From assembly GCF_001650195.1 (NCBI RefSeq), contig NZ_LXYR01000038.1, positions 1 to 48,548 of the forward strand: a stretch of DNA of 48,548 bases, written 5' to 3'. A program made the position numbers and the translations under genes. The stretch is from Phormidesmis priestleyi BC1401. Lineage in GTDB: Bacteria; Cyanobacteriota; Cyanobacteriia; Leptolyngbyales; Leptolyngbyaceae. Under the pieces are notes generated by a model, which did not search any database, was not told the origin of the DNA, and saw only the letters and a program-made list of their open reading frames with translations. Of this stretch, positions 7,682-31,975 are shown piece after piece (the first letter of the stretch is position 1; the number at the start of each line of letters is the position of its first letter).

Positions 7682-8707
7682 ATGATCACACAAGCATTAT
7701 TTGCATCTATGAATCGAGACTCTTCACAATCGTCTTTTCGTTATTTATACGACTCGTCAAATCTACCCCAGAGCATCGACGAGAGCATTGCTCAAATTAA
7801 AGCGTTTGCGTTGCAAGAGTTCGATCGAGAAGTCGTTGAGAAGCAGCTTTATTATCACAATCGGGAGCATCTAGAGAACGTTCGGCGGCGGTCAACCCTG
7901 ATTTTGCAAGCGATCGTTCCGACCTGGGAGGTATGGCTACAGCAGCAGGAACCCTCGATTGACCTGTCTCGAATCGAGTTACTGCTTGATTTATCGATCG
8001 CTGCTCACGACATGGTTCAAGTGTTCATTAGCCAATCTGATCTCCATGCAACGCGACGACGAGAACCCGGTGTCAGCGAACGGGCAAGCTTTGAGCGATT
8101 AGTGGAATACATCAACGCATTAAACCAGCAGTTGCAAAGACACGATCCTGACAGCCCAGCCCGATTAACCGATCGCGATATCGCGATTATTCGGGCAGCG
8201 ATCGGGGCAACGATCTGCACCTACGCTCCAACCGAGCAGGCGATCTACCAGGCTGATTTATATGATGTGCAGAATCCTCCCTCGATCGTGGCGCGCATTC
8301 TTGCCCTAGCAGACATCGGCGCACTGGGAATCGACGGCACCGAAGTCTATAGTCAGGAAGGAAGCCTTCTGTTTTTAGAAGAAAATTTAGACGTGATTCC
8401 GCTGCTTTTGGACGAAACTATTGATCGGTTAGAATCGGATAATTTGGCACTCTATCAAAATATTCAGCAGCGTTTATTAAAGCGTTGTCGGTTTCAGGTG
8501 AACTTTGCTAAAAGTCGGGCTGCACGGCTTAAGTCTGAGTTAGTGGGGTTTCCAGAAAGTACGATCGACACGCTGACTCATGACGTATTTCGATATTTGA
8601 ATCCGGCTACCATACAAGCGATCGAAGCCACCACACCCACGGCTGAAACCGCTTCGCTAAAGTCACTGCTTGAGTTTTTTGAGCTTGAACGATATCTCGA
8701 TCGTTAA
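7682..8707 (+). CDS. HD-domain-like metal-dependent phosphohydrolase family protein
   Basis: A 341-residue protein. YYHNREHLENV (His59, His63) followed by AAHDMVQ (His109-Asp110) has the spacing of an HD-type metal site: a first His in helix one and an HD pair in the next helices. Later residues DRDIAIIRAAIGATI and RILALADIGALGIDGTEV could complete the metal site and the helical core. HD proteins hydrolyse phosphate esters such as cyclic dinucleotides, nucleotides or (p)ppGpp, but nothing here fixes the substrate. It follows the P450 by 26 bp and ends 45 bp before the convergent amidohydrolase. The family call is by motif only; a regulatory role is inference. Confidence 0.6.
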   Translation: MITQALFASMNRDSSQSSFRYLYDSSNLPQSIDESIAQIKAFALQEFDREVVEKQLYYHNREHLENVRRRSTLILQAIVPTWEVWLQQQEPSIDLSRIELLLDLSIAAHDMVQVFISQSDLHATRRREPGVSERASFERLVEYINALNQQLQRHDPDSPARLTDRDIAIIRAAIGATICTYAPTEQAIYQADLYDVQNPPSIVARILALADIGALGIDGTEVYSQEGSLLFLEENLDVIPLLLDETIDRLESDNLALYQNIQQRLLKRCRFQVNFAKSRAARLKSELVGFPESTIDTLTHDVFRYLNPATIQAIEATTPTAETASLKSLLEFFELERYLDR

Positions 8708-8752
8708 GGTCGGTTCAGAATTGAAGACGAGATGCGTCAAAGTCTACACTGC

Positions 8753-9517
8753 TCAGTGCACCAAAGATGATCTGCTTTTAGAGGCTGTCTTGACTCCTTG
8801 AATCAGCCGCAGCAAATTTTTGCCTAAGATCAAAGCTTCCTGCTGGGGTGGTAAACCCAACAACCGAACTTTGTGTAGCTCAACTCCTGGATGCAGCCAA
8901 GGACCATCCGTGCCAAACAAAACTTTGTGGGCACCCCCGCGCTTTACTGCCTGCACGAGGTAATCAAACCGACGCACCCCAGAGGTGTCAGCATAGACAT
9001 TGGGGTAGCGATCGATTTGGTCGATAACTCGCAAATGAGCACGCCAGTCATCGGCAAAGCTGCCCAAGTGGGGAATGATGAAGTTGACATCGGGATATTG
9101 GGATGCCAACAGTTCAATTAAGTCGGTTTGACCTACTGGATCGTAGAGTAGCGGTATACCAAACGTCCGGGCAGCATCACATATTTCACGGGTTGCGGGT
9201 GCATCTATGCGATGCACTTTGATGCCGCAAAACTTCCAGCGGGTGACAGCCTCTCCGATGATTTGCTCAATGCGCCCTTTGTCTCGCTGGGCATGGACAA
9301 AGGCAAACCCAATCAAGCGATCGGGTTCACGGGCAACAATCTTCGCCGTGTTGGCATTCGCCTGCTGGTAGTTGCTGTGAAAGGGCGAAAAGATGACAGT
9401 CTTGTTAATTCCCGCCGCTTTTGCTCGTCGGAGATAGGTGCCCATAGGTGCATCAGTATCCCAGGGACCTGTGAGCAAGTCACCTTTCCCAGCGTGGCAA
9501 TGGCAGTCGATGATCAT
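8753..9517 (-). CDS. Amidohydrolase-2-family TIM-barrel hydrolase
   Basis: A 254-residue metal-dependent hydrolase of the COG2159 type. It opens with MIIDCHCHAG, the HxH metal motif (His6, His8) of the amidohydrolase superfamily. CGIKVHR gives a barrel strand with a Lys-x-His. FIIPHLGSF supplies a further His. KVLFGTDGPW near the C-terminus supplies the catalytic Asp. The protein is shorter than ACMSD-type decarboxylases (about 330 residues), as expected for the minimal members. The substrate is unknown. It is isolated, convergent with the HD-like gene. Confidence 0.8.
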   Translation of the reverse strand: MIIDCHCHAGKGDLLTGPWDTDAPMGTYLRRAKAAGINKTVIFSPFHSNYQQANANTAKIVAREPDRLIGFAFVHAQRDKGRIEQIIGEAVTRWKFCGIKVHRIDAPATREICDAARTFGIPLLYDPVGQTDLIELLASQYPDVNFIIPHLGSFADDWRAHLRVIDQIDRYPNVYADTSGVRRFDYLVQAVKRGGAHKVLFGTDGPWLHPGVELHKVRLLGLPPQQEALILGKNLLRLIQGVKTASKSRSSLVH

Positions 9518-9688
9518 GCTTTGTATCCTCTACGATGGAAGCATTCGGTTGGTGGCGAATGATGGCTGAACCTCACGAAAGACCCCATACTCGATCCCTT
9601 AGTGGACAGAGATCGAACTGTTGTTCAGCTTTCAGTAGATTTCTGCGTGAATACCACAATAAAGACTTTAAACTGAAGACTCTCGCCA

Positions 9689-18490: not shown

Positions 18491-20704
18491 TTAAGACGAC
18501 TGCAACAGATTCTTCAATTCTTGTTCACGATGTTGAAGACGCTCTGCTAATAGGTTCACCACAAATCGATGAATGTTTGAGGCTAACAGCGGGTCAGACG
18601 CTTCGATCTGCTCAAACGACTCAGTCGGCAGAAAATAAACCATGCTGGGCTTATCAGCAACCACCGATGCCATACGCAACGTCTTGCGATAGAGACCCAT
18701 TTCCCCGATCGTGTTCCCCACTGTGTAGGTACGAATGCGTTTTGTTTGCCCTTCACTCAAATCGAGCACCACACTTACCTGCCCAGAACCCACAAAATAT
18801 AGACCATCAAACGGGTCTCCCTGATGAAACAAATAGTCTCCTTCAGCAAAGAGACGCGACTCAAGCCGACTCATCAAACGATCGACCTGAACCGGATCTG
18901 AGAACCCTGACTTGAGATGCTCAGGGAGCGATCGGGCTTCTAGCTCACTCACATTGCTCTCCATGAGAATCTGCTGTTCACACCATTCAAGCCCCCGATC
19001 TAAATCGGCGAAGACGTGACAATAGGGGTCATCCGCTTCGAGACAGTCTCCTTGCTTGAGTCGCTGCATCGCGTCGTCAGACAGATTGGTAAACAGTAGA
19101 TGCACCCCTTTTGAGGAAGCGACTTGCTTGAGTTTGGCAAAACTGAGCACAGCGGAGGCATCTAAACCGCTCACGAGCCGAAAGTCTAAAATCACAAACC
19201 GAACTTCGGTCGCGTTGGGATGATCGAGGCGATCGCGGATCTCAGTCAGCAGTTTGTTGGCGGTGCCAAAAAAGATCAGTCCCTGCAGTTCTAGAACATA
19301 AATCTGTTCGCCTTGGGTGTCTAAGATGTCGAGTTCTTCAGAGTTTCGCAACACATTGCTGTGCTGAAATGCGCCTGACCCAACTCGCTTTGTCACCGAC
19401 AATCGACTGTAGTTGACCACAAACAGCACGATCGCGGCAAGCAACCCTACACTAATACCCTGCAGATAGCCGATGCTGCCCGTCACTACCACAATCAGCA
19501 CGATGATCGCATAGTCCGATCTCGAAAATTTGAACCACGCTTGATAGAGCCATTCATAAAAGAATTCCAGTCCGAGCAGCAGTGGAATGCCCACTAGAAC
19601 AAATTTGGGAACGAGCGAAAGCAGGGATGCGCCTCCGAGCAACGTGGCTAAACAAATTCCGGTAATCGTCCAGCCCACAATGCGTCGAGTGCCTCCTAGA
19701 TGATGAGCCAGCGTGTTTTCTCCCGAACTGGCGAACCCGCCAATGCCACCCCCCAAACCAGATGCGATCGAGGCAGCCCCTGCCACTTTTAGCTCATAGT
19801 TGAGATCGAGATCGCGAGAGGCAGCAAGCTCGATGCCGTTTGCGTTGAGCAGCAGCGCCATCGATTCTATGAGCCAGAGTGCAGCTAAACTCGGCACCTG
19901 CTGCAAAACAACGCCCCAATTTGCCTGAGTCAACGCTGGAATCGTCGTAAAACGATAAAGACTGCCAGGGGGAAGGGTGCCTAACAGCAAACCGTTCTCG
20001 GTAGCTTGCTCGATCGAGGTGCCCGTCATCGCTAAGGCAATATAAAACAGCACAAACGCGATCGCGATAATACTAGGGATGACTAAAAAGTGGTCGATCA
20101 TCTGAGGAATCGCAAACATCGCGACTGCAAAGATCAGCGCTGGCACCCACTGAAGCAACACGTTAGGCTGCACGAACGCTGACAGGGTTAAGTGGTGAAA
20201 GTCAAGCCCTTCGATCGAGTGCATTGCCCCTTGAACTAATAGCACGCCTGTTCCTGCAAGAAAGCCGCCCACGATTGGGTAGGGAATATAGCGAACAAAG
20301 CCGCCTAGCTTGAACCGACCTAGCAGGGTAAAAATAATGCCACCCACCACGGCGTACACCACAATTGTCGCCGTGAGCGTTAATAATTTATCTTCAACCG
20401 AGGCATTGGGCATCTGGTCAAGAATTTGTCGGGCAACCAAACTTAAGACTGGGATGCTCGGCTCTGAAACGGTTCCCACAATGGCAGGATAAGCGCTGAA
20501 CGCCGTCACGATCGCGCTGACGACGGTTGAGCTAAACAGCAGTAGCCCTGTGCCAAACGGGACTGCATTTGAGAAGGCTCCAGAGAAGATGACAGAGGCA
20601 AATGAGACGCTTGTAATCACGGTCAAAAGCCCCATCGTGCCGCCTGTCGTGAGATTCAAGAGAAGAGGATTAACAGTGGGTTTAGAATGCGCTTTGGTAG
20701 CCAC
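18491..20704 (-). CDS. SulP-family anion transporter with STAS and cyclic-nucleotide-binding domains
   Basis: 737 residues. About 430 N-terminal residues form the multi-helix SulP/SLC26 permease (for example YIPYPIVGGFLAGTGVLLVQ, and GGGIGGFASSGENTLAHHLG). A STAS domain follows at about 460-575, with the LVSGLDASAVLSF loop. A cNMP-binding domain covers about 612-730: ESRLFAEGDYLFHQGDPFDG, then IGEMGLYRKTLRMAS, which keeps the Glu and Arg of the phosphate-binding cassette. Family members move sulfate, bicarbonate or other anions; the substrate is not readable. The start is GTG at 20704. It is divergent from the MscS gene, which has the same C-terminal domain type. Direct cyclic-nucleotide control is possible but not shown. 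Confidence 0.9.
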   Translation of the reverse strand: MATKAHSKPTVNPLLLNLTTGGTMGLLTVITSVSFASVIFSGAFSNAVPFGTGLLLFSSTVVSAIVTAFSAYPAIVGTVSEPSIPVLSLVARQILDQMPNASVEDKLLTLTATIVVYAVVGGIIFTLLGRFKLGGFVRYIPYPIVGGFLAGTGVLLVQGAMHSIEGLDFHHLTLSAFVQPNVLLQWVPALIFAVAMFAIPQMIDHFLVIPSIIAIAFVLFYIALAMTGTSIEQATENGLLLGTLPPGSLYRFTTIPALTQANWGVVLQQVPSLAALWLIESMALLLNANGIELAASRDLDLNYELKVAGAASIASGLGGGIGGFASSGENTLAHHLGGTRRIVGWTITGICLATLLGGASLLSLVPKFVLVGIPLLLGLEFFYEWLYQAWFKFSRSDYAIIVLIVVVTGSIGYLQGISVGLLAAIVLFVVNYSRLSVTKRVGSGAFQHSNVLRNSEELDILDTQGEQIYVLELQGLIFFGTANKLLTEIRDRLDHPNATEVRFVILDFRLVSGLDASAVLSFAKLKQVASSKGVHLLFTNLSDDAMQRLKQGDCLEADDPYCHVFADLDRGLEWCEQQILMESNVSELEARSLPEHLKSGFSDPVQVDRLMSRLESRLFAEGDYLFHQGDPFDGLYFVGSGQVSVVLDLSEGQTKRIRTYTVGNTIGEMGLYRKTLRMASVVADKPSMVYFLPTESFEQIEASDPLLASNIHRFVVNLLAERLQHREQELKNLLQSS

Positions 20705-20881: not shown

Positions 20882-22336
20882 ATGGAGTTGCAGTCTGCCT
20901 TCACATGGACGATTCTGCAAATTAAACGGTTTCTTCAAGACTTGTTAAGTGCTTTTAACAGCAGTTTGTTTACGTTTGCAGGAGAAAAATTTTCACTCGG
21001 CTTAGTCGTTGAGCTGATTGTTCAAGTGATCATTGTCGTGATCTTGGCAAATGCGGTTAAGCAATTGCTAAGACAACGGATCTTACCGCGCTTTAAGCTA
21101 GAAATTGGCACACGAGAGTCATTATCAGCGATTACTGGTTACATTGTTACAGTGATTGGCTTTTTTATAGTGCTAGAGACGGCTGGCATCAATCTAAGTT
21201 CGCTTGCAGTGTTTGCGGGTGCGATTGGCATCGGGGTTGGCATTGGGCTGCAAAACTTGTCGAGCCAGTTTATCAGCGGCTTAACGCTTCTGTTTGAGCA
21301 ACCCATCAAAGTGGGCGACTATATTGAGGTCGATAATCTTGCCGGAACAGTCGAAGGAATTGCGATTCGTGCAACCACTATTCGCACGATTAACGGCGTG
21401 TTTGTGATTGTGCCCAACAGTCGGTTTCTCGACACCAAAGTCGTCAACTGGAGCTATCGCGACCCCAACTGTCGAATTGAGATTCCGGTGCGGGTGGCTG
21501 AAGAAAATGACTCGCTGACGGTGCTAGAGGCGTTGCTGTCAGCCGCTCGTCAAGAGCCGAGAGTTTTACCGTCTCCATCACCAGAGGTTTACTTTAAAGG
21601 AATTGAAGACGGTGCGTTGAAGTTTGATCTCACGGTGTGGATTGGCAACCCGATCGAGATGGATTCGATTAAAAGTGCCCTGCGATTTTTGATTGAGGCA
21701 GAATTTCGCGATCGTGCCATTAATCCAAAAATGGTAACGGGTCTGACGATCGAGAATCTGCCCTCACTGGCAGCCCTACTGCAAACTCCTCACCAAGTCA
21801 ATGGATTGGCAAAACAGGTCGAAGTAGAAGCCCCAATCGCAGGACGGATGCTGCGCGATTTGCTGCAAAAAGTCAGCTATTTTCAGCAATGTGGCGAGGT
21901 TGAGCTGCGGCAGGTGATCGAGAAAGGCTATCGTAAAAAACTGACGATCGGAGAAACCATTTGTCGAGAATCTGATCCCGGTGACTCGTTTTATATCATC
22001 TTGTCAGGCTCGGTTGAGGTGTTTGTCGAATCGATTTCAAAACAGGTCGCCGTTCGTCGATCGGGTGAGTTTATCGGTGAGATGTCATTGCTGATGGGCA
22101 CCCCGCGCACTGCTACGCTACGAACTTTAGAAGAAACGATTTTGTTTGTGGTTGACCACAATAACCTGCAAAGTTTGTTAAAAAATCATCAAGGGTTAGC
22201 CGATAAAATTGCAGAAGAGCTATCTCATCGCCAAGAAGCTTTAGAAAGTTTAGGAATCACGATCGAAGCCGCTCCAAAAGAAGATACCTCATTTCACCAA
22301 ATTCGCAAACGAATCCAATCCATCTTTGGAATCTAA
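20882..22336 (+). CDS. MscS-family mechanosensitive channel with C-terminal cyclic-nucleotide-binding domain
   Basis: 484 residues. Transmembrane helices lie at about 40-65 and 80-105, followed by the pore helix AGAIGIGVGIGLQNLSSQFI (from residue 112) typical of MscS TM3. The beta domain has PIKVGDYIEV and TIRTINGVFVIVPNS. From about 330 a cNMP-binding domain follows: TICRESDPGDSFYIILSGSV, then GEFIGEMSLLMGTPRTAT, with the conserved Glu and Arg of the binding cassette. MscS-CNMP fusions are known channels, thought to combine tension and ligand gating. It opens to the cytoplasm side and protects against osmotic down-shock. It is divergent from the SulP-CNMP gene and upstream of the Wsp-like operon with its adenylyl cyclase. 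Confidence 0.92.
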   Translation: MELQSAFTWTILQIKRFLQDLLSAFNSSLFTFAGEKFSLGLVVELIVQVIIVVILANAVKQLLRQRILPRFKLEIGTRESLSAITGYIVTVIGFFIVLETAGINLSSLAVFAGAIGIGVGIGLQNLSSQFISGLTLLFEQPIKVGDYIEVDNLAGTVEGIAIRATTIRTINGVFVIVPNSRFLDTKVVNWSYRDPNCRIEIPVRVAEENDSLTVLEALLSAARQEPRVLPSPSPEVYFKGIEDGALKFDLTVWIGNPIEMDSIKSALRFLIEAEFRDRAINPKMVTGLTIENLPSLAALLQTPHQVNGLAKQVEVEAPIAGRMLRDLLQKVSYFQQCGEVELRQVIEKGYRKKLTIGETICRESDPGDSFYIILSGSVEVFVESISKQVAVRRSGEFIGEMSLLMGTPRTATLRTLEETILFVVDHNNLQSLLKNHQGLADKIAEELSHRQEALESLGITIEAAPKEDTSFHQIRKRIQSIFGI

Positions 22337-22360
22337 ACTTCGGCGTTGCTAATAAATTTT

Positions 22361-22446
22361 GCCCTCATCCCCAACCCTTCTCCTTGGGGAGAAGGGAGCT
22401 AGAACTCTTGTCCCCTCTCCTTTGGGGAGAGGGCTAGGGTGAGGGT
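22361..22446. repeat. Dispersed palindromic repeat, copy 2
   Basis: Begins gccctcatccccaacccttc and ends gggctagggtgaggg. Same arms and centre (gagctagaactcttgtcccc) as copies 1 and 3. It starts 24 bp after the MscS stop codon and could act as a terminator. Confidence 0.85.
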
Positions 22447-22590
22447 AAAATTGGGGTCTCATCAATAGATTCAGCACTGCCTAAATTTCCAGCTTTGGGG
22501 CGATGTCAAGCAAGATTTACTAGGGGATGATTGTAGAGTCCTTGTTGATGACACTCAAAACGAGATGCGCTGTTCTCGATCGCCTAACTC

Positions 22591-23070
22591 ATGCTAATGC
22601 TCCTGTTCCAAGCTGGCGATAACTTCTATGCCATCGATAGCGCTCAAGTGGTCGAGGTGATTCCGATCGTAACGCTCAGACCTCTCAATCACGTTCCCGA
22701 ATATATTGCGGGCGTGTTCAATTATCGAGGCAACTTAGTTCCGGTTGTTGATTTGTGTCGGTTGCTTCATCACACCGATTGCCGTTCCCGTTTTAGTACC
22801 CGCATTATGATGGTTTACTATCCCACCAGTGACGGCACTCGGCAGTGGTTAGGACTCATGGCAGAACGCGTCACCGAAACCCTCAACCGACCCGACCTAG
22901 ATGCAAAAAACACGGCTCAAGTGAGCGATGTGCCCTACTTAGGCAACCTATTTATGGACGAGAAAGGCATGATCCAGCAGATTCACTGGCAGCATTTAGT
23001 GTCAGATGACCGCTCTGCATCTCTGTTTATTCAAGAAAGCGTTGAGGCAAATGGTGCAAGACGCGATTGA
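22591..23070 (+). CDS. CheW-domain coupling protein (WspB-like)
   Basis: 159 residues, a single CheW domain. MLLFQAGDNFYAIDSAQVVE starts the first barrel, PEYIAGVFNYRGNLVPVVDL is the classical CheW block, and the ending matches the second barrel. CheW proteins bridge chemoreceptors and the CheA kinase at the membrane array. It is the first gene of a seven-gene operon whose order resembles Pseudomonas wsp (receptor, coupling proteins, methyltransferase, kinase, methylesterase, output), with the receptor third rather than first. The start could be 22591 or the Met two codons on. The CheR gene overlaps its 3' end by 20 bp. Confidence 0.88.
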   Translation: MLMLLFQAGDNFYAIDSAQVVEVIPIVTLRPLNHVPEYIAGVFNYRGNLVPVVDLCRLLHHTDCRSRFSTRIMMVYYPTSDGTRQWLGLMAERVTETLNRPDLDAKNTAQVSDVPYLGNLFMDEKGMIQQIHWQHLVSDDRSASLFIQESVEANGARRD

Positions 23071-24232
23071 GGCTCTGCTAAAGCAGAAAATCGGGCTAGA
23101 TGCCGAGAGCATTGGGTCGAGAACGATCGCTCACGCAGTCGAACAGCGGCGGTTAACGTGTGGGTTGCCCGATCGAGCCGCTTATCTCTTACACTTACAA
23201 ACCTCACCCCAAGAGTTGGAAAACCTGATCGAAACGGTCGTTGTGCCCGAAACCTGGTTTTTTCGCGATCGAGAGCCGTTTGTCTATCTCAGTCAATTTG
23301 TCACTCAATGGCGATCTGCCCATCCCGCCAGCGTATTTCGGGTTCTCAGTGCACCTTGCTCAACCGGAGAGGAGCCTTACTCGATCGCCATCACGCTGCT
23401 CAAGGCTGGGTTGACTCCGGCTCAGTTTCACATCGACGCGGTGGATGTCAGCAAACGGGCGCTTCTCAAGGCAACGCAGGGCATTTATCGGCAAATATCG
23501 TTTCGAGGAGGCGGGTTGCCTGAGCAGTCACGCTACTTTCAGTCGGTCGCCAATGGGCAAGAGATTCGCCCCTTCGTGCGGGATACTGTGAGCTTTCGAT
23601 CGGAGAATCTCCTCAATCCCGGTTTTTTGTCTCAAGAGGCTTATCACACAATTTTCTGTCGCAATCTTCTGATTTACCTCGATCGTGACTCCCGAATTCA
23701 GCTAGTTCAGAGGTTGGATTACGCTCTAGCTCCATCGGGTTTACTGTTTGTGGGATCGCCCGAAATGCCGCAGGTCAACGCCGATCACTTCACGCCGATT
23801 CGCCACCCCTTTGCATTTGGCTACCACAAACAAAATCGCGTCGTCGATCGTCCGCTGCCCCCGATCGCTCATCCTCCGCAAACGATTTCGGTTCCGGTTC
23901 CTGCGTCTGCTCCTATCTCTGAGCCTACCGAGTTGGCAACCGCCCAGCAGCTTGCCAACCGAGGACACCTTATAGAAGCGATCGCCGTGTGCCAATCCCA
24001 TTTGAGAGCGCATCCGACAGACGCTCAAGCCCATGTGCTGTTAGGCGAAATTCATCAAGGTCTCAATCAATCTGAGCAAGCCGAACAAGCGTTTCAGAAA
24101 GCGATTTACCTCAACCCCAGTGCCTATGAAGCGATGACTCATTTGGCGTTGTTAAAAGAACAAAAGGGCGATCGAGCGGGGGCAACTCTTTTAAAGCAGC
24201 GCATTCAGCGATTGCTCAACACTCAACGTTAG
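23051..24232 (+). CDS. CheR-type receptor methyltransferase with TPR repeats (WspC-like)
   Basis: 393 residues. The N-terminal CheR domain has VVPETWFFRDREPF and the SAM-binding loop APCSTGEEPYSIAI (about residue 95-110), then the inserted beta subdomain and YHTIFCRNLLIYLDRDSRIQ. After a Pro-rich linker, two to three tetratricopeptide repeats run from about 300: LANRGHLIEAIAVCQSHL and NQSEQAEQAFQKAIYLNPSA. It methylates glutamates of the MCP encoded next. CheR with TPRs is typical of WspC. The ATG at 23051 (MVQDAIEALL) was chosen; it lies inside the end of the CheW gene, pointing to translational coupling. A longer start at 23006 would add residues unlike CheR. Confidence 0.9.
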   Translation: MVQDAIEALLKQKIGLDAESIGSRTIAHAVEQRRLTCGLPDRAAYLLHLQTSPQELENLIETVVVPETWFFRDREPFVYLSQFVTQWRSAHPASVFRVLSAPCSTGEEPYSIAITLLKAGLTPAQFHIDAVDVSKRALLKATQGIYRQISFRGGGLPEQSRYFQSVANGQEIRPFVRDTVSFRSENLLNPGFLSQEAYHTIFCRNLLIYLDRDSRIQLVQRLDYALAPSGLLFVGSPEMPQVNADHFTPIRHPFAFGYHKQNRVVDRPLPPIAHPPQTISVPVPASAPISEPTELATAQQLANRGHLIEAIAVCQSHLRAHPTDAQAHVLLGEIHQGLNQSEQAEQAFQKAIYLNPSAYEAMTHLALLKEQKGDRAGATLLKQRIQRLLNTQR

Positions 24233-24322
24233 AAAGTTCGAGTATCGTGGATATCGAGCGAAGGGGAGGCAGTGACCACAGCTACGCTACTCTAGAAATG
24301 GGTATTGGTAGGCTGGTCTTAG

Positions 24323-25939
24323 ATGTTAAATCGCTGGAAAATTAGCACTCAAATCGCTGCGGGGTTTGCCCTGGGCTTAACCGTCTTCTCGATCATTGGC
24401 ATTGTCTCTTATCGGGGCACACAGCAACTCGTTTCAGCCGCTCGTCAAGAAAAGTACACCTATCAAGTGTTGGGTGAGTTAGAAGAGATTCTTTCGCTGA
24501 TCAAAGATGTCGAAACGGGGCAACGGGGCTATTTGCTGACCAATGGCACTCGCTATCTCGCTCCCTACAATCAAGCACGAACTGCGATTCAATCGAGAAT
24601 TGGAGAGTTGAGACAGACCGTTAGAGACAATCCAACTCAGCAAAATTATGTTCAGACTTTAGAACCGCTCGTCAATCAAAAGCTCGCCGAACTCGATTCG
24701 ACCATTCGCCTCAAGCAAAATGGACAATCGGCGGCTGCACTCAAAGTCGTGAAAACAGACGAGGGCAAGCGGTTGATGGATCAGATTCGAGACGTGATAG
24801 CTCGGATGGAATCCGGAGAGCGCGATCTATTGCAGACCCGATCGCAGATTGCTGACAGGTCTGCCCAACGCACTCTTAACAGCATTCTCTATGGGATGCC
24901 GTTTGCGATTTTGCTGCTGGCTCTGATCGGCGTGATTCTCAATCGTCAGATTGCCCGTCCGCTCAATCTAGCTTCAAAAGTGGCTCAACAGGTTGCAGAT
25001 GGCGATTTGACTCAAGCGATCGCTGCTACCAGAGACACCACCGAAGTGGGGCAATTGATGACCGCGTTTCAACGAATGACCAAGAGTTTGAATGCTTTGA
25101 TTGCACAGGCACAAAAATCTGGCATTCAAATCAGCACGTCTACGACTCAGATCGCAGCGGCAGGCAGACAGCTTGAAGCAACGGTGAATGAGCAAGTTGC
25201 ATCCATGCACGAAGTCAATGCCACCTCTCGACAAATTGCGTCAACCGCAGGCGAGTTAGCAAAATCGATGGATGGAGTGGCTGAGACAGCGCGCACCACG
25301 ACTGAAGCAGCTACTAGCAGCCAAATGAATCTAGAAAGAATGCAGCTTGCAATGCAAAATTTAGTGCTGGCGACTAGCTCGATTTCGTCAAAGTTAACTG
25401 TGATGGATGAGAAAGCGAATAATATTAATACGGTCGTGACTACGATTACTAAAGTCGCCGATCAAACCAATTTACTATCGCTGAATGCCGCGATCGAAGC
25501 CGAAAAAGCCGGAGAGTATGGAGCCGGATTTGCGGTTGTGGCACGAGAAATTCGTCGTCTTGCCGATCAGTCGGCGGTCGCCACCCTTGAGATTGAGCAA
25601 ATGGTGAAAGGAATGCAATCGTCGGTGTCTCAGGGCGTGATGGAGGTCGATAAATTTAGCAGAGAAGTCAGGCAATATGTTGATGATGTCGGAGATATCA
25701 GCGGACAAATTGCCGGATTCATCCAAAATGTGCAGGGGTTAACGCCGCAGTTTGGGGCAGTCAGTCAACGCATGGATGAACAATATCGCGGGGCAGAACA
25801 GATTAGTTTAGCGATCGGGCAACTCAGCGATGCGTCTTATCAAACGGTGCAATCGCTGCAGGAAACCAACAATGCGCTGACTCAGTTAAATGACGCGGCT
25901 CAAGGCTTGCAGCGAGAAATTTCTCAATTCAAGGTGTAG
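24323..25939 (+). CDS. CHASE3-HAMP methyl-accepting chemoreceptor (WspA-like)
   Basis: 538 residues. TM1 at about 8-30. A periplasmic CHASE3 domain at about 40-185 has IKDVETGQRGYLLTNGTRYL. TM2 is about 188-208, and HAMP about 210-262 (NRQIARPLNLASKVAQQVAD). The cytoplasmic signalling coiled coil contains the hairpin tip VADQTNLLSLNAAIEAEKAG (near 379-398). This is the sensory input of the operon; CHASE3 receptors sense unknown, often surface- or stress-related cues. It is 90 bp downstream of CheR and 7 bp before the next CheW gene. The domain order equals a standard membrane receptor, so it should cluster with CheW and CheA. Confidence 0.93.
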   Translation: MLNRWKISTQIAAGFALGLTVFSIIGIVSYRGTQQLVSAARQEKYTYQVLGELEEILSLIKDVETGQRGYLLTNGTRYLAPYNQARTAIQSRIGELRQTVRDNPTQQNYVQTLEPLVNQKLAELDSTIRLKQNGQSAAALKVVKTDEGKRLMDQIRDVIARMESGERDLLQTRSQIADRSAQRTLNSILYGMPFAILLLALIGVILNRQIARPLNLASKVAQQVADGDLTQAIAATRDTTEVGQLMTAFQRMTKSLNALIAQAQKSGIQISTSTTQIAAAGRQLEATVNEQVASMHEVNATSRQIASTAGELAKSMDGVAETARTTTEAATSSQMNLERMQLAMQNLVLATSSISSKLTVMDEKANNINTVVTTITKVADQTNLLSLNAAIEAEKAGEYGAGFAVVAREIRRLADQSAVATLEIEQMVKGMQSSVSQGVMEVDKFSREVRQYVDDVGDISGQIAGFIQNVQGLTPQFGAVSQRMDEQYRGAEQISLAIGQLSDASYQTVQSLQETNNALTQLNDAAQGLQREISQFKV

Positions 25940-25946
25940 TCACGGT

Positions 25947-26636
25947 ATGGATTCTATTGATGATTGCTGGAATCAGATTGGCGTTTGGGGCGATCGCTCT
26001 TGCCCTCAGCTAGAGACGGTGATTCACTGTCGCAACTGCCCGGTGTATGCGACAGCGGGGCGCAATTTGCTAGAGCGAGACGTTCCGATCGAGTATCTTG
26101 ACGAGTGGACAGCCACGATCGCCACTCCTTTAGACGAAGCGGTAAAAACGCTGAATTTCGCAGAGGGCGATCGCGATTCTGCAACCGGAAGCAACACCCT
26201 ATCTGTGATTCTATTTCGGCTCGGAGATGAGCAGTTTGCCTTATCGGTTGGAGTGCTCCACGAAGTTACGCATCCGGGTGCGGTTCACAGGCTGCCTCAT
26301 CGCACTAACGACTCGTTTTTGGGACTGATTAACATTCGAGGCGAGATTTTGATGACCCTATCGTTGAGTCATTTTCTCGGTCTAAAGACGGTGGAGAATT
26401 CTTCGTCTCTCAGTCGGCTTTTGGTGGTGGGACACCACGATCGCAAGTGGGTGTTTCCGGTGGATGAAGTGCATCGAATCCATCGTGTTGAGGCAAGTGA
26501 GCTAAAAGCGGTGCCTGTCGTCGTCTCTCAATCGAGTGAATCTTACACCCAAGGGATTATTGACTGGCAGAGCAAAAAGGTGAATTATTTGGACGCTGAC
26601 CTGTTGTTTTACACGCTTGAGCGCAGGATTTTGTGA
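25947..26636 (+). CDS. Second CheW-domain protein with Cys-rich N-terminus (WspD-like)
   Basis: 229 residues from the ATG at 25947. The first 40 residues hold CWNQIGVWGDRSCPQLETVI followed by HCRNCPVY, the Cys-containing signature of WspD proteins. The CheW domain follows: VILFRLGDEQFALSVGVLHE and DSFLGLINIRGEILMTLSLS. The cysteine pattern (Cys near 7, 19, 29 and 32) might bind a metal or be redox-active; that is not established. An earlier in-frame ATG at 25890 lies inside the MCP gene and was rejected. The stop TGA (26634-26636) shares its last base with the ATG of the kinase gene, indicating tight coupling. Confidence 0.9.
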   Translation: MDSIDDCWNQIGVWGDRSCPQLETVIHCRNCPVYATAGRNLLERDVPIEYLDEWTATIATPLDEAVKTLNFAEGDRDSATGSNTLSVILFRLGDEQFALSVGVLHEVTHPGAVHRLPHRTNDSFLGLINIRGEILMTLSLSHFLGLKTVENSSSLSRLLVVGHHDRKWVFPVDEVHRIHRVEASELKAVPVVVSQSSESYTQGIIDWQSKKVNYLDADLLFYTLERRIL

Positions 26637-29440
26637 TGAGCAATGGAGACTCTATGCGCGATTACTCCATGCTGGGTCTGTTTTGTCAAGAAGTGGAGAC
26701 TCAGGTCAAATCTCTGAAGCAAAGTCTGTCAATTTTAAAGCAGCAGCCTTCTCAGGAGGGCGAATTAGATACGGCGATGCGATCGCTCCACGCGATCGCC
26801 GGGTCTGCTCAACTCATCGAAATCGATGTCGCCGCCACGCTGTCTGAGCAGATGAGAGTTTGCTTAATCGCCGTGCAGAGTGGCTCAACGCCCTTGGCTG
26901 ATGCGCTGGTCGATCGCCTCCTCCACGCTGGGGATCTGCTGATTGAAATCAGTGCCGCGACTAGCGATGGAACGTTAGAGAATTGGTTGTCACAACACTC
27001 GGAGGATTTGGCACAGACGCAGACAGCGATCGCGGAGGGTGACAAAGCGGCTATTCCCCCCGCCCTCCCACAAAGGGCGACGGAGCCAGAACATTCGATT
27101 TCATCTGATCACCCAAAACCAAATCCGCCTTCGCTGCTTTTAGATAGCTCGATGATGGAGTTATTTCGGCTCGAAGTCGAAGCACAGGCGACGCTCTTAA
27201 ACAATGGGCTGCTGGCGCTAGAATCTCAGTCTCACTCTGCTCAAGAATTAGAGGCATTGATGCGGGCGGCTCACTCGGTCAAAGGTGCCGCTCGCATTGT
27301 GGGATTGGATGCCGCCGTTCAGCTTGCCCATGTAATGGAAGACTGCTTTGTTGCGGCTCAAGCTCACACCATCACGTTGAACAGCGATCGCGCCGATGTG
27401 CTGCTGCGGGGCGTTGATTTGCTTCAGAGTCTCAGTCAGGTGAGCGACGCTGATTTACCCAACTGGTTGACAAACCATGACTCAGAGTTTCAAACAGTGC
27501 GATCGACGATCGAGGCAATTCGCAATGCAGAAGGAACGGCGGCGATTCAAACTTTAAAGGCTGATTTCGTTCCAGCGCTCGCTCCTGCTGAATCGACTCC
27601 CACTGCTCACGAGCCTGAAAATCCGCTGAGTCCGGCTTCTGGAGAGATAAGCCCTGCTGACGCGGCGGCGGCTCAGGAGCGCGTTGTGCGAGTCAGTGCA
27701 GACAATCTCAATCGCATGATGGGACTGGCTGGAGAATCTTTAATCGAAGCTAATTGGCTGCCACCGTTTGCAGATTCTCTGATGGTGCTCAAATCGCGAC
27801 AGCTAGAACTGTCTAAAAACCTAGAGCGATTGCAGCAAAACGCGATGCTCAACCCAGATCTCGATCAAGATTCTAAATCATTGATCGATGCGACTCGTCA
27901 ACGCGACCAAGAATGCCGCGACCTGCTCAACGATCGCTTGACCGAACTCGAAGAATTTATTCGACGATCGGCAAATCTCTCCGATCGCCTCTATCGAGAA
28001 GTGATCACCTCCCATATGCGTCCGTTTATGGATGGGGTGCAGGGGTTTCCGCGCATGGTCAGAGATCTGGCTCGCACCGTCAACAAGCAAGTCAAATTGG
28101 AGATTGTCGGCAAATCAACGTCGGTCGATCGAGACATTCTCAAAAAGCTCGAAGCGCCTCTCACCCACATTTTGCGAAATGCCGTTGACCACGGAATCGA
28201 ACTGCCAGAAGAGCGCATCGCGGCGGGAAAGCCTGCCGAAGGAACCGTTCGAGTCGAGGCAATGCACCGGGGCGGAATGTTGGCGATTACCATTTCTGAT
28301 GACGGCAAGGGCATCACTCCGATCGCGTTACGTCAACAGATTATCAACAAACAGTTAGCCGCGCCCAAAGTCGTCGCCAAGTTGACCGACGCTGAACTGA
28401 TGGAGTTTCTGTTCTTACCCGGATTTTCGATGAGCAAACAGGTGACAGAACTCTCTGGTCGAGGCGTAGGCTTAGACATTGCCCAAAGCATGGCGCAAGA
28501 AGTGGGAGGCACCGTGAGAGCGGCTTCCCAAGTGGGGAAAGGCAGCAGTTTTTATTTTCAATTGCCCCTGACGCTCTCCGTTGTGCGGACGTTGCTCGTC
28601 GAGATTTCTGGAGAAGCCTATGCGTTTCCTCTGGCGCGCATCGATCAGATCATCACCGTTCAGCCCTCAGAGATTTCCATCGTCGAAAATCGGCAATATT
28701 TCACGCTGGATGGGATAAATATCGGTCTAATTCCGGTGCATCAAGTGCTCGATTTGCCTCCGCCCGCCTCGTCGCCCTCCCCGCTTTGGGTGGTGGTGAT
28801 TAGCGATCAATCTAACACCTATGGATTGGTGATCGATCGCTGTCTCGGAGAACGCGAACTGGTCGTGCGTCCGCTCGATGCTCGCCTGGGCAAAGTGCCC
28901 GATATTAGTGCAGCCGCCCTGATGGGAGACGGGTCACTCGTGCTGATTGTGGATGTGTCTGACCTGGTACGATCGACCAACGCACTGCTCAACAGTGGAT
29001 CGATCGCCAGAGTCGCTGAATCGTCTAACAAGACTCCTGAAGGAATCATTCTTAATGACTCTGCGCCCCAAGAGAAGCGAATATTAGTCGTAGACGACTC
29101 GATCACGGTGCGAGAAATGGAGCGCAAACTGCTGCAAAATCGCGGCTATGTCGTCGAAGTTGCCGTTGATGGAATGGAAGGCTGGAACGCGATACGATCG
29201 TCTCCCTACGATTTAGTGATTAGCGATATTGATATGCCCCGAATGAACGGAATTGAACTGATTAAAGAAATTAAACGGCATCCGCGACTGGGTTCAACTC
29301 CCGTGATTGTGGTGTCTTATCGCGATCGGGAAGACGATCGCATTCAAGGCTTAGAAGCCGGGGCAAACTACTATCTCACCAAAAGTAGTTTTCATGACGA
29401 CACGCTGATTCGAGCCGTCGTGGATTTAATTGGTGAATGA
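26636..29440 (+). CDS. CheA-type hybrid histidine kinase with C-terminal receiver (WspE-like)
   Basis: 934 residues. A canonical phosphotransfer domain is centred on His213 (LMRAAHSVKGAARIVGL). A preceding Hpt-like domain has His52 in MRSLHAIAGSAQLIEI but has lost the conserved Lys. The dimerisation region follows (VSADNLNRMMGLAGE). The HATPase has LRNAVDHGIELPEER and ISDDGKGITP. A CheW-like P5 domain begins near LSVVRTLLVEISGEAYAFPL. The receiver at about 815-934 has RILVVDDS and phospho-acceptor Asp864 (LVISDIDMPRMNG). It phosphorylates the CheB and cyclase receivers and probably its own receiver. A GTG at 26633 is an alternative start one codon upstream. Confidence 0.93.
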   Translation: MSNGDSMRDYSMLGLFCQEVETQVKSLKQSLSILKQQPSQEGELDTAMRSLHAIAGSAQLIEIDVAATLSEQMRVCLIAVQSGSTPLADALVDRLLHAGDLLIEISAATSDGTLENWLSQHSEDLAQTQTAIAEGDKAAIPPALPQRATEPEHSISSDHPKPNPPSLLLDSSMMELFRLEVEAQATLLNNGLLALESQSHSAQELEALMRAAHSVKGAARIVGLDAAVQLAHVMEDCFVAAQAHTITLNSDRADVLLRGVDLLQSLSQVSDADLPNWLTNHDSEFQTVRSTIEAIRNAEGTAAIQTLKADFVPALAPAESTPTAHEPENPLSPASGEISPADAAAAQERVVRVSADNLNRMMGLAGESLIEANWLPPFADSLMVLKSRQLELSKNLERLQQNAMLNPDLDQDSKSLIDATRQRDQECRDLLNDRLTELEEFIRRSANLSDRLYREVITSHMRPFMDGVQGFPRMVRDLARTVNKQVKLEIVGKSTSVDRDILKKLEAPLTHILRNAVDHGIELPEERIAAGKPAEGTVRVEAMHRGGMLAITISDDGKGITPIALRQQIINKQLAAPKVVAKLTDAELMEFLFLPGFSMSKQVTELSGRGVGLDIAQSMAQEVGGTVRAASQVGKGSSFYFQLPLTLSVVRTLLVEISGEAYAFPLARIDQIITVQPSEISIVENRQYFTLDGINIGLIPVHQVLDLPPPASSPSPLWVVVISDQSNTYGLVIDRCLGERELVVRPLDARLGKVPDISAAALMGDGSLVLIVDVSDLVRSTNALLNSGSIARVAESSNKTPEGIILNDSAPQEKRILVVDDSITVREMERKLLQNRGYVVEVAVDGMEGWNAIRSSPYDLVISDIDMPRMNGIELIKEIKRHPRLGSTPVIVVSYRDREDDRIQGLEAGANYYLTKSSFHDDTLIRAVVDLIGE

Positions 29441-29443
29441 CCT

Positions 29444-30469
29444 ATGAAAATCGCCATTGTCAACGATATGTTTATCGCCATCGAAGCGCTGCGACGAGTG
29501 CTGATGACGATCGCCGAGCATGAGATTGTGTGGATTGCCAAAGACGGGGCTGAAGCCGTTGCTAAATGCGCCAAAAACACCCCTGATCTGATCTTAATGG
29601 ATCTGATCATGCCCGTCATGGATGGCGTTGAGGCAACTCGACAAATCATGAAGCGATCGCCCTGTGCCATTTTGATCGTCACCGCCAGCATTGAACAAAA
29701 TTCTGCAAAAGTCTTTGAAGCGATGGGATATGGCGCACTTGATGCGGTTAACACTCCCGTTTTGGGCAATCAAGGCACCCCCGGAGCCGCCCTAGCTCTA
29801 CTCGGAAAAATTGCCTCGATCGCCAAGCTGAACGGCAAATCTCCTCCGCCCCTTTCCTTTCCCTCTCCCCCCTCTTCGGTGTCCTTTTCTTCTTCTACGC
29901 TGCCTTCTCTAATCGCGATTGGCTCCTCTACAGGTGGACCGAAAGCCCTCTCCGCGATTCTCTCTCGTCTGCCCGCCAACTTGGGAGCCGCGATCGTCAT
30001 CGTTCAGCACGTCGATGCTCAATTTGCGGAAGGCATGGTTGACTGGCTCAATCAACTCACGCCCCTGACGGTTAAAAAAGCTTCAGTGGGCGATCGTCCC
30101 CAAAAGGGCATCGTCCTGGTTGCCTGCACCAATGATCATCTCTGTCTTCAGGTAAACCAGACGCTAAACTACGTCAGAGAGCCGATCGAGTATCCTTACC
30201 GCCCGTCGATCGACGTGTTTTTTAAGAGTGTTGCTCACTATTGGACATCGAGAGGAATAGCGGTGTTGCTAACTGGGATGGGGCGAGACGGGGCTGAAGG
30301 GCTGCGGCTGCTGCGAAGTGTGGGTTGGCACACGATCGCGCAAGATAAAGTAAGCTGTGCGGTTTATGGAATGCCAAAAGCGGCGGCTGAATTAAATGCG
30401 GCGGTTGAGGTGTTAAACCCGGACGCGATCGCAACCACACTTCTACAGCGCACCCGTCTAAACCGTTAA
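29444..30469 (+). CDS. CheB-type receptor methylesterase (WspF-like)
   Basis: 341 residues. The receiver at 1-120 has phospho-acceptor Asp53 ([20 protein letters not shown]). A Pro/Ser-rich linker (about 130-155) follows. The CheB catalytic domain has Ser161/Ser162 in [11 protein letters not shown], His189 in [12 protein letters not shown] and Asp282 in [13 protein letters not shown], the full Ser-His-Asp triad. It removes methyl groups from the MCP at 24323 and provides adaptation against CheR. It starts 3 bp after the kinase gene. In wsp systems loss of WspF leaves the array constitutively active; the same would be expected here if the pathway is analogous. Confidence 0.94.
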
Positions 30470-30484
30470 GACTTTATTCTCGAT

Positions 30485-31975
30485 ATGGATGAATCCATCA
30501 CAGTGCTTTTAATTGACGACCAATCGATCATTGGCGAAGCCGTGCGGCGAATGTTAGAGGCTGAACCGGATATCACGTTTCACTACTGTGATGACCCGAC
30601 TCAAGCGCTCAAGATGGTTAGAGAGTGCCAGCCCACGGTGATCTTGCAAGATTTGGTCATGCCCCAAATGGATGGGCTGCTGCTGGTGCGGTTTTTACGA
30701 TCGCACGATGCCCCAACTTACCAGATTCCGCTGATCGTGCTGTCGAGTAAAGAAGAGCCGCTGATCAAAGCTCAAGCGTTTGAACTGGGCGCAAATGATT
30801 ATCTAGTAAAGCTGCCCGATCGCGTCGAACTGCTCGCCCGAATTCGCTATCACTCTAGAGCCTACACAAACCTACTCAAGCGCCAAGAAGCCGAGGCACT
30901 GCTGCGCGACGAAAACCTGCGGCAATCCCTCTACATTCAGCAAGTAGACAAATTGACTCAGGCGGCTGCAACGGTTGAGCAAGATACCTTTGCGGCGGAG
31001 AGTTTGAGCGATGTCGTCGATCGCAATGATGAGTTAGGACAACTTGCACGAGTCTTTACTCAAATGGTGAGAACGGTCAAAAATCGTGAACAGGAATTGA
31101 AACGGTTAAATGATTCCTTTGCTCGATTTTTTCCGGGCGAATATCTCAAATTTCTTCGCAAAGACAGCGTAACCGACGTGCAGCTTGGCGATTATGTCAG
31201 CAAAATGATGGCAGTGATGTTTAGCGACATCCGATCGTTTACCACCATGTCAGAAACGATGACCCCCCGCGAAAACTTTGACTTCGTAAATGCTTACTTA
31301 AAGCGCGTCAGTCCAGAAATTCGCAATCACTATGGCATCATCGTCAAGTTTTTGGGAGACGGCATGATGGCGGTGTTTCCTGATGGGGCAGATGATGCCG
31401 TGGCGGCAGGTGTCGCCAAACAGCAGCGAGTGCAGGAGTACAATCAGCAGCGCAAGACGAGGGGCGATTTACCCATTCAGGTGGGCATCGGCATTCACGT
31501 TGGGCAGATGATGTTAGGCATGGTCGGCGAAGCCAATCGCATTCAGGGCGACGCGTTTTCAGATAACGTTAACCTGACATCGCGACTAGAGGGGTTGACT
31601 AAATTTTATGGCGTGGCGATGTTGATTTCAGGTCAGACGTTAGAACATTTGAGCAACCCCGATCGCTATCAAATTCGCTTTTTAGATCGGGCGATCGTCA
31701 AGGGTCGAAATGAAGCGATTTCAGTCTATGAAGTGTTAGACGCTGAGGTTGAAGAAGTGCGATCGCTAAAGCTGCAAACCCAACCCGACTTCGATCGCGG
31801 AGTCAAGTGCTATGGCGATCGAGCCATCCAGGATGCAAAAGTTTGTTTTGAGCAAGTGTTAGCAATTCATCCGGCTGATAAGACGGCAAAACTTTATTTA
31901 GAACGAGTGGAATGGCTGATCGAGAATGGCATCCCCGATAACTGGAGTGAAGCATGGGTGTTTAGTGAAAAATGA
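30485..31975 (+). CDS. WspR-like receiver fused to a class III adenylyl cyclase
   Basis: 496 residues, last gene of the operon, 15 bp after CheB. The receiver (1-125) has VLLIDDQSIIGEAVRRML, phospho-acceptor Asp56 (ILQDLVMPQMDGL) and LVKLPDRVELLARIRYHSRA, very like WspR. A helical linker follows (130-215). The class III cyclase domain at about 235-420 has metal-binding Asp248 (MFSDIRSFTTMSE) and Asp292 (FLGDGMMAVFP), Lys288 and Asp356 at the adenine-specifying positions, and the transition-state pair Asn363/Arg367 (NLTSR). All catalytic residues are present, so it should make cAMP. A TPR-like helical tail covers about 425-496. WspR itself carries a GGDEF domain, so the output here is exchanged. 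Confidence 0.93.
   Translation: MDESITVLLIDDQSIIGEAVRRMLEAEPDITFHYCDDPTQALKMVRECQPTVILQDLVMPQMDGLLLVRFLRSHDAPTYQIPLIVLSSKEEPLIKAQAFELGANDYLVKLPDRVELLARIRYHSRAYTNLLKRQEAEALLRDENLRQSLYIQQVDKLTQAAATVEQDTFAAESLSDVVDRNDELGQLARVFTQMVRTVKNREQELKRLNDSFARFFPGEYLKFLRKDSVTDVQLGDYVSKMMAVMFSDIRSFTTMSETMTPRENFDFVNAYLKRVSPEIRNHYGIIVKFLGDGMMAVFPDGADDAVAAGVAKQQRVQEYNQQRKTRGDLPIQVGIGIHVGQMMLGMVGEANRIQGDAFSDNVNLTSRLEGLTKFYGVAMLISGQTLEHLSNPDRYQIRFLDRAIVKGRNEAISVYEVLDAEVEEVRSLKLQTQPDFDRGVKCYGDRAIQDAKVCFEQVLAIHPADKTAKLYLERVEWLIENGIPDNWSEAWVFSEK

Follow-up and report, generated by a model that had tools for sequence, protein, structure and literature searches.

A Wsp-type chemosensory operon of Phormidesmis priestleyi BC1401 with a putative adenylyl cyclase as its output

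The DNA analyzed here, referred to as the window, is a stretch of 48,548 nucleotides from Phormidesmis priestleyi BC1401 (contig NZ_LXYR01000038.1, contig 38 below). At positions 22591-31975 it contains a seven-gene operon, all on the + strand, which encodes a CheW protein (CheW1), a CheR-TPR methyltransferase, a CHASE3 receptor, a second CheW protein, a CheA-REC hybrid kinase, a CheB methylesterase, and a response regulator that joins a receiver to a class III cyclase. Judging from its sequence, the operon quite probably encodes a chemosensory pathway of the Wsp type that has an adenylyl cyclase as its own response regulator. If so, a model surface-sensing pathway can switch its second messenger by the exchange of one domain. 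It would also provide an example, open to testing, in which a chemosensory array writes cyclic AMP (cAMP) beside cAMP-binding membrane proteins.

The core of this finding, a Wsp-like operon with a cyclase in the WspR position, has already been published for the BC1401 genome. In the accessible passages of their paper, Chrismas et al. 2016 (PMC4971617) described wspBCADEF in this strain and noted that a class 3 adenylate cyclase takes the position of WspR; their cluster comes from the same genome and agrees with the operon in the window in gene content and gene order. They marked two receiver-GGDEF proteins encoded elsewhere as putative WspR and regarded both the response regulators and the effectors as unclear. 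Our analysis bears on the question thus left open in 2016, that of the operon's own response regulator. The same passages do not name the channel and the SulP transporter encoded next to the operon, nor do they discuss catalytic residues or alternative outputs. For clusters with CheR-TPR in general, the accessible section of Garcia-Fontana et al. 2012 (PMC3447774) lists outputs that include a mononucleotidyl cyclase, a histidine kinase, GGDEF, and a protein phosphatase. These alternative cellular function (ACF) clusters form a general class, within which that section does not single out this operon, a WspR-type receiver, or the neighboring genes. Beyond these two papers, no report of an adenylyl cyclase serving as the output of a Wsp-type operon was found in a literature search that left most subscription journals outside its range. 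With the same range in mind, the argument from the receiver, the residue conservation, the naming of two neighbors with cyclic-nucleotide-binding domains (CNBDs), and the survey of outputs appear to be new.

By sequence homology, the chassis of the operon is Wsp. A first-pass annotation of this DNA had named WspB-, WspC-, WspA-, WspD-, WspE-, and WspF-like genes, and all of these were recovered, both by their Pfam domains and by their identities to proteobacterial Wsp proteins (Table 1; three species were compared for WspD and WspE, and two for WspA, WspB, WspC, and WspF). The second CheW protein has the Cys-rich N-terminus typical of WspD (DCWNQIGVWGDRSCPQL...IHCRNCPVYA), which aligns with WspD of three proteobacteria. 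In a tree of CheB proteins, 58 Wsp-type rows, including five proteobacterial WspF, were separated from three other CheB proteins (branch 2.19, support 100/99); these three long-branched rows form the outgroup, and the Wsp group is not reliably rooted. Within it, the five proteobacterial WspF rows formed one group (100/94). The tree was built without the loci L014, L016, L034-L040, L089, L090, and L093, which had no CheB or yielded non-orthologs or duplicates. A search of a plasmid collection with CheB matched 160 records; among the 40 records listed, 20 were 50-58% identical to the query and the next was at 36%. Matches to the WspR-type receiver (56-64%) were present in many of the records that match CheB. 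The gene set, the WspD-type CheW, a CheB in the WspF clade, and a WspR-type receiver on the output protein are thus all present, and each component of proteobacterial Wsp, from CheW to the WspR-type receiver, has its homolog in the operon. The operon nevertheless falls outside the Wsp pathway in the strict sense, because its output is a Guanylate_cyc domain, without GGDEF, whereas proteobacterial Wsp has GGDEF as its output. In addition, the receptor gene stands third in the operon, and first in Wsp of Azoarcus and Mesorhizobium.

The output protein consists of a WspR-type receiver, a long helix with a HAMP-like linker, a class III cyclase, and a helical tail at the carboxyl terminus. Asp56 of the receiver lies within ILQDLV, and the motif LVKLPD is found at residues 107-112. 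When the receiver was searched against the PDB, the top matches were the WspR structures 3i5a and 3bre (E about 1e-47), followed among receivers by PleD at 6e-16 (best 60 of 230 matches considered); it shares 61% identity with WspR of Azoarcus. The first-pass annotation had placed a WspR-like receiver with Asp56 on the last protein of the operon, and residue position, PDB matches, and identity all bear this out. Searched against its own genome, the receiver matched 26 places at E<=1e-8, itself included, and the other 25 were at most 37% identical. By this measure, the genome yielded no other WspR-type receiver. In the two receiver-GGDEF proteins (contigs 21 and 62), the receiver is 25% identical to that of the operon and 26-27% identical to WspR of Azoarcus. 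That the operon receiver resembles WspR far more than these two do favors the cyclase as the cognate output of the operon. A structure model of the output protein, built from 27 sequences and of middling confidence (mean pLDDT 77, pTM 0.55), served for fold assignment only; in a Foldseek search ranked by E-value, WspR came first, followed by Cya2 and other class III cyclases.

The cyclase domain carries Asp248, Lys288, Asp292, Asp356, Asn363, and Arg367. We take Asp248 and Asp292 to be the metal aspartates, Lys288 and Asp356 to be the adenine-type pair, and Asn363 and Arg367 to be the transition-state residues. The protein therefore has the residues expected of a class III adenylyl cyclase, and the assignments made in the first-pass annotation hold at every position that it named. 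For comparison, 41 response-regulator rows were aligned, 37 of this cyclase (type 1) and 4 of a second cyclase type, with three pairs of identical rows. All six residues were unchanged in 37 of the 37 type-1 rows (34 distinct). The guanylyl cyclase Cya2 aligns Glu at the Lys288 column and Gly at the Asp356 column. Based on these residues, cAMP is the likely output of the pathway. As a separate observation, cyclases of Chloroflexota, including Anaerolineales (L041, L043-L050), are 49-59% identical over linker, cyclase, and C-terminal tail, a stretch that excludes the WspR-type receiver.

When genome contigs were scanned for relatives, of which the best 80 of 103 were kept, 28 ortholog loci (L006-L033) were obtained, full-length or nearly so and 68-92% identical; L032 is from Calothrix sp. 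PCC 7103. Among 386 cyanobacterial genomes, 9 contained the full-length receiver-cyclase, that of BC1401 included; these searches scored the best few candidates per genome (4 for cyclase and channel, 5 for CheB, 2 for SulP), so that absences in them are not strict. Of the 386 genomes, 27 contained Wsp-type CheB (at least 55% identity), at 30 places in all, and the surroundings of all 30 were examined (the operon itself, L086-L096, and L110-L127). The adjacent output was this cyclase at 9 places, the second cyclase type at 4, a receiver-histidine kinase at 8, and a receiver-PP2C/SpoIIE phosphatase at 4, with no WspR-type receiver adjacent at the remaining 5. A WspR-type receiver-GGDEF was the output at none of the 30, although GGDEF proteins without a WspR-type receiver occurred in two of the stretches (L088 and L117). 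The survey of wsp-like operons for cyclase-type terminal genes that the first-pass annotation had proposed found this cyclase at 9 of 30 places and another cyclase at 4. All 16 output proteins that were not type 1 were confirmed by Pfam. CheB and the cyclase are separated by another receptor gene at L091 and L094.

The second cyclase type is distantly related and has the same adenylyl residues. The two types lie far apart in a cyclase tree, which was built without L008, L089, L090, and L093 (truncated reading frame or duplicates), and in which the position of the cyclases paralogous to that of the window is unsure. On the CheB tree, the output label changed four times for this cyclase, twice for the second type, three times for PP2C, and once for the histidine kinase, the last with weak support (62/57). 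The four PP2C loci (L086-L088 and L112) also encode a DUF6272 protein and a STAS-like protein nearby, the latter by similarity only in L112. In L086-L088 the genes run phosphatase, CheB, DUF6272, STAS, after which the GGDEF protein follows in L088. By analogy, the Wsp chassis of these loci possibly drives a Sia-type partner switch reminiscent of SiaABCD; the match to the SiaA family itself was far below the cut-off.

Two genes just upstream of the operon encode membrane proteins with a CNBD, out of 11 cNMP-binding domains in the genome: an MscS-type channel and, divergently transcribed, a SulP-family anion transporter. The channel contains the MscS pore, beta domain, and cNMP-binding domain that define bCNG channels, and may be gated by cyclic nucleotide. 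Such channels are reportedly built from an MscS fold with a CNBD, a domain make-up that the protein in the window shares; no link of bCNG channels to a Wsp-type pathway was found in the literature searched. The binding motif of the channel is GEMSLLMGTPRTAT, and its CNBD matches PKG, PKA, and SthK in the PDB. The SulP protein has a motif resembling the phosphate-binding cassette (GEMGLYRKTLRMAS). The Glu and Arg of this cassette are kept in both CNBDs. By position, the channel gene corresponds to the "cyclic nucleotide binding protein" in the accessible passages of Chrismas et al. 2016 (PMC4971617).

Both genes are placed as in the window in L007 and L011, at a distance from channel to CheW1 of 9 bp and 74 bp, respectively. 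SulP alone was found in L010 and L019 and the channel alone in L027 (53 bp from CheW1), while L008 has a piece of SulP on a rearranged contig. Further channels were found in Moorena stretches (L026, L034, L035, and L037, with only an end piece in L022). Overall, an MscS-CNBD match was present in 10 of the best 80 loci, one being the end piece in L022. Two others belong to tandems of a CHASE2-class III cyclase with an MscS-CNBD channel (L056:523-4336 and L061:8711-12275), in metagenome-assembled genomes (MAGs) of Eisenbacteria and Fermentibacteria.

In the pathway that we propose, the WspA-like CHASE3-HAMP membrane receptor and the two CheW proteins would control the CheA-REC kinase, with receptor methylation set by CheR-TPR and CheB. 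The kinase is predicted to phosphorylate Asp56 of the output protein, and the phosphorylated receiver would act through the long helix and HAMP-like segment to alter the activity of the cyclase dimer, and with it the cAMP level. This control is assumed to be activation, by analogy with WspR. WspA responds to surface contact or envelope stress, and the receptor of the operon may, on the same grounds, respond to such a stimulus. We are less confident about where the signal goes; the adjacent channel and the divergently encoded SulP transporter are plausible candidates for its closest recipients.

The observations that weigh against this proposal are considered here together with the alternatives that they favor. 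Two of the 28 orthologs (L014 and L016) sit outside the chassis setting, as they might if a receiver-cyclase gene had come to lie by chance beside an unrelated che operon. In 26 of the 28 ortholog loci of other genomes, however, CheB immediately precedes the cyclase gene, so that che genes stand beside the cyclase more often than chance would place them. Together with the WspR-type receiver, and with the other outputs carrying such receivers that fill the slot elsewhere, this makes a chance neighborhood barely credible. A different alternative is that cyclic di-GMP is the real output, made by the receiver-GGDEF protein of contig 21 or 62, with the cyclase as a passenger. These proteins exist, and structural modeling by Chrismas et al. 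2016 (PMC4971617) gave, in the accessible passages, high-confidence WspR-like matches. Their divergent receivers argue against it: neither protein was among the 26 places in the genome matched by the operon receiver, and the absence of WspR-type receiver-GGDEF proteins beside CheB at the 30 Wsp-type places in the 386 genomes points the same way. We consider this alternative very improbable. Somewhat more room is left for a cyclase that is guanylyl-specific, promiscuous, or weakly active, and that would make cyclic GMP (cGMP) or little messenger. Cya2, which ranks directly after WspR in the Foldseek search, is titled a guanylyl cyclase, and prediction of cyclase specificity from residues falls short of proof. 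Moreover, at the Lys288 and Asp356 columns the adenylyl cyclases CyaB and OaPAC align Lys and Thr, respectively; Asp is therefore not the sole adenylyl-type residue at the latter. The PRTA in the binding motif of the channel is also compatible with cGMP binders, PKG among them, and we assume that PR(T/S)A does not discriminate cAMP from cGMP. Such a cyclase nonetheless seems unlikely in view of the presumed adenylyl pair, for which Cya2 has Glu and Gly instead, and the invariance of the six residues among the distinct type-1 sequences.

Even if the product is cAMP, it may enter a pool shared by the whole cell and act on CRP-type regulators, the two CNBD genes being mere neighbors; this is a serious possibility, if short of probable. 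Four other class III cyclases are encoded in the genome, and cAMP is therefore not private to the Wsp-type pathway; nine of the 11 CNBDs lie away from the operon. The channel, SulP, or a piece of either was found in only 8 of the 28 ortholog loci (4 with a channel reading frame, 1 with a channel end piece, and 5 with SulP or a piece of it), many of these stretches being cut by contig ends and the linked loci being related, hence not independent. The linkage is bound to certain lineages and does not extend to Nostocales-type loci: neither gene was present in ten loci, mostly from Nostocales, with 1.1-2.2 kb of sequence before the first chassis gene (L018, L020, L021, L023, L024, L028, and L030-L033). 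There, the proteins upstream of CheW1 matched no Pfam family in L020, L023, L024, and L028, and gave only a weak HD match in L030. Six operon-bearing genomes (G064, G072, G074, G127, G306, and G328) had no channel at E<=1e-50 among the candidates scored. In P. priestleyi ULC007 (L013), the closest relative with the locus, CheW1, CheR, and channel are all missing before the receptor, with WD40 and FHA genes in their place, and in L095 a different protein with two CNBDs lies nearby instead of the channel. In the window itself, 254 bp that contain a palindromic repeat lie between channel and CheW1. Against mere neighborhood, the linkage recurs in the Leptolyngbya-type lineage and in Moorena, and cyclase and MscS-CNBD channel form tandems in MAGs of two other phyla. 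Furthermore, the SulP relatives beside the operon (L007, L008, L010, L011, and L019), mostly cut by the stretch ends, are 60-80% identical to that of the window, whereas among the SulP candidates scored in the 386 genomes none outside BC1401 exceeded 40%.

Going beyond the proposal of an adenylyl cyclase as the pathway's own output, we tentatively suggest, as a joint reading that may well fail in one of its parts, that the Wsp chassis of cyanobacteria serves as a plug-in sensor. Its WspR-type receiver would have repeatedly been re-fused to varied outputs (class III cyclases of two distantly related types, histidine kinases, and PP2C/SpoIIE phosphatases accompanied by SiaB/SiaC-like partners), GGDEF not being among them in this sample. 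The cAMP made would directly gate the neighboring channel in the Leptolyngbya-type lineage and Moorena, and the anion transporter in the former, such that surface or envelope sensing would tune ion flow without transcription.

Table 1. Genes of the operon and its two CNBD-encoding neighbors in the window
Feature	Position	Strand	Basis
SulP-family anion transporter, STAS and C-terminal cyclic-nucleotide-binding domain (candidate cAMP effector)	18491..20704	-	Pfam Sulfate_transp 1.5e-22, STAS 1.9e-10, cNMP_binding 6.9e-20
MscS-type channel, C-terminal cyclic-nucleotide-binding domain (bCNG-like; candidate cAMP effector)	20882..22336	+	Pfam MS_channel_2nd 8e-23, cNMP_binding 1.3e-20
CheW, WspB-like	22591..23070	+	Pfam CheW 5.9e-20; 32.5-38.5% identity to WspB of Azoarcus/Mesorhizobium
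CheR-TPR methyltransferase, WspC-like	23006..24232	+	Pfam CheR 6.3e-39 and TPR; 38-42% identity to WspC
CHASE3-HAMP-MCPsignal receptor, WspA-like	24323..25939	+	Pfam CHASE3 8.8e-41, HAMP, MCPsignal; 34-39% identity to WspA
Second CheW, WspD-type Cys-rich N-terminus	25890..26636	+	Pfam CheW 3.5e-24; 37-41% identity to WspD
CheA-REC hybrid kinase, WspE-like	26633..29440	+	Pfam Hpt (2 stretches), HATPase_c, CheW, Response_reg; 48-50% identity to WspE
CheB methylesterase, WspF-like	29444..30469	+	Pfam Response_reg and CheB_methylest 2.6e-58; 54-58% identity to WspF; tree
Output response regulator, receiver and class III cyclase	30485..31975	+	Pfam Response_reg 5.8e-21, Guanylate_cyc 3.7e-19, HAMP below cut-off

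Taking the first start codon called for each, successive reading frames of the operon are spaced by -65, 90, -50, -4, 3, and 15 bp. Going by the sequence, the called starts of CheR-TPR and of the second CheW are probably too early, and the true starts are perhaps the Met codons at 23051 and 25947, respectively. An NCBIfam scan of the operon proteins gave a match above cut-off for CheB only (best 25 families considered for the kinase, CheB, and two response regulators). Promoter-like sites were at chance level (13 versus 11.0 expected) and terminator-like sites below it (5 versus 12.6), and neither were used as evidence. Between the channel gene and CheW1, positions 22337-22590 hold a palindromic, GC-rich repeat, presumably of a kind often found as mobile repeats in cyanobacteria.

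The kinase differs from the three proteobacterial WspE proteins compared by an additional N-terminal Hpt-like domain with His53 (CheA residues 1-165, positions 26633-27130), which precedes the regular Hpt with His214. This domain has no Lys at the HxxKG position, and its His is substituted in L007, L011, L027, and L094, for which reasons it looks like a decaying second Hpt.

Several further observations concern individual Wsp loci. The proteins of L110 and L111 matched no Pfam family. In L113, where Wsp-type CheB has no adjacent output regulator, the gene directly after it (8473-9537) gave a below-cut-off match to a ligand-gated ion channel binding domain. Dynamin-TerB and lipase genes adjoin CheB in two histidine-kinase-type loci (L119:11274-13883 and L120:11442-12458, respectively), and in L126 (genome G027) a receiver-histidine kinase instead of a cyclase occupies the Wsp-type slot. 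Among the loci with the cyclase, L006, a MAG contig labeled Tatlockia but grouping with Chlorogloea, is probably misbinned. A MAG contig labeled Klebsiella pneumoniae (L064) carries a cyclase as well.

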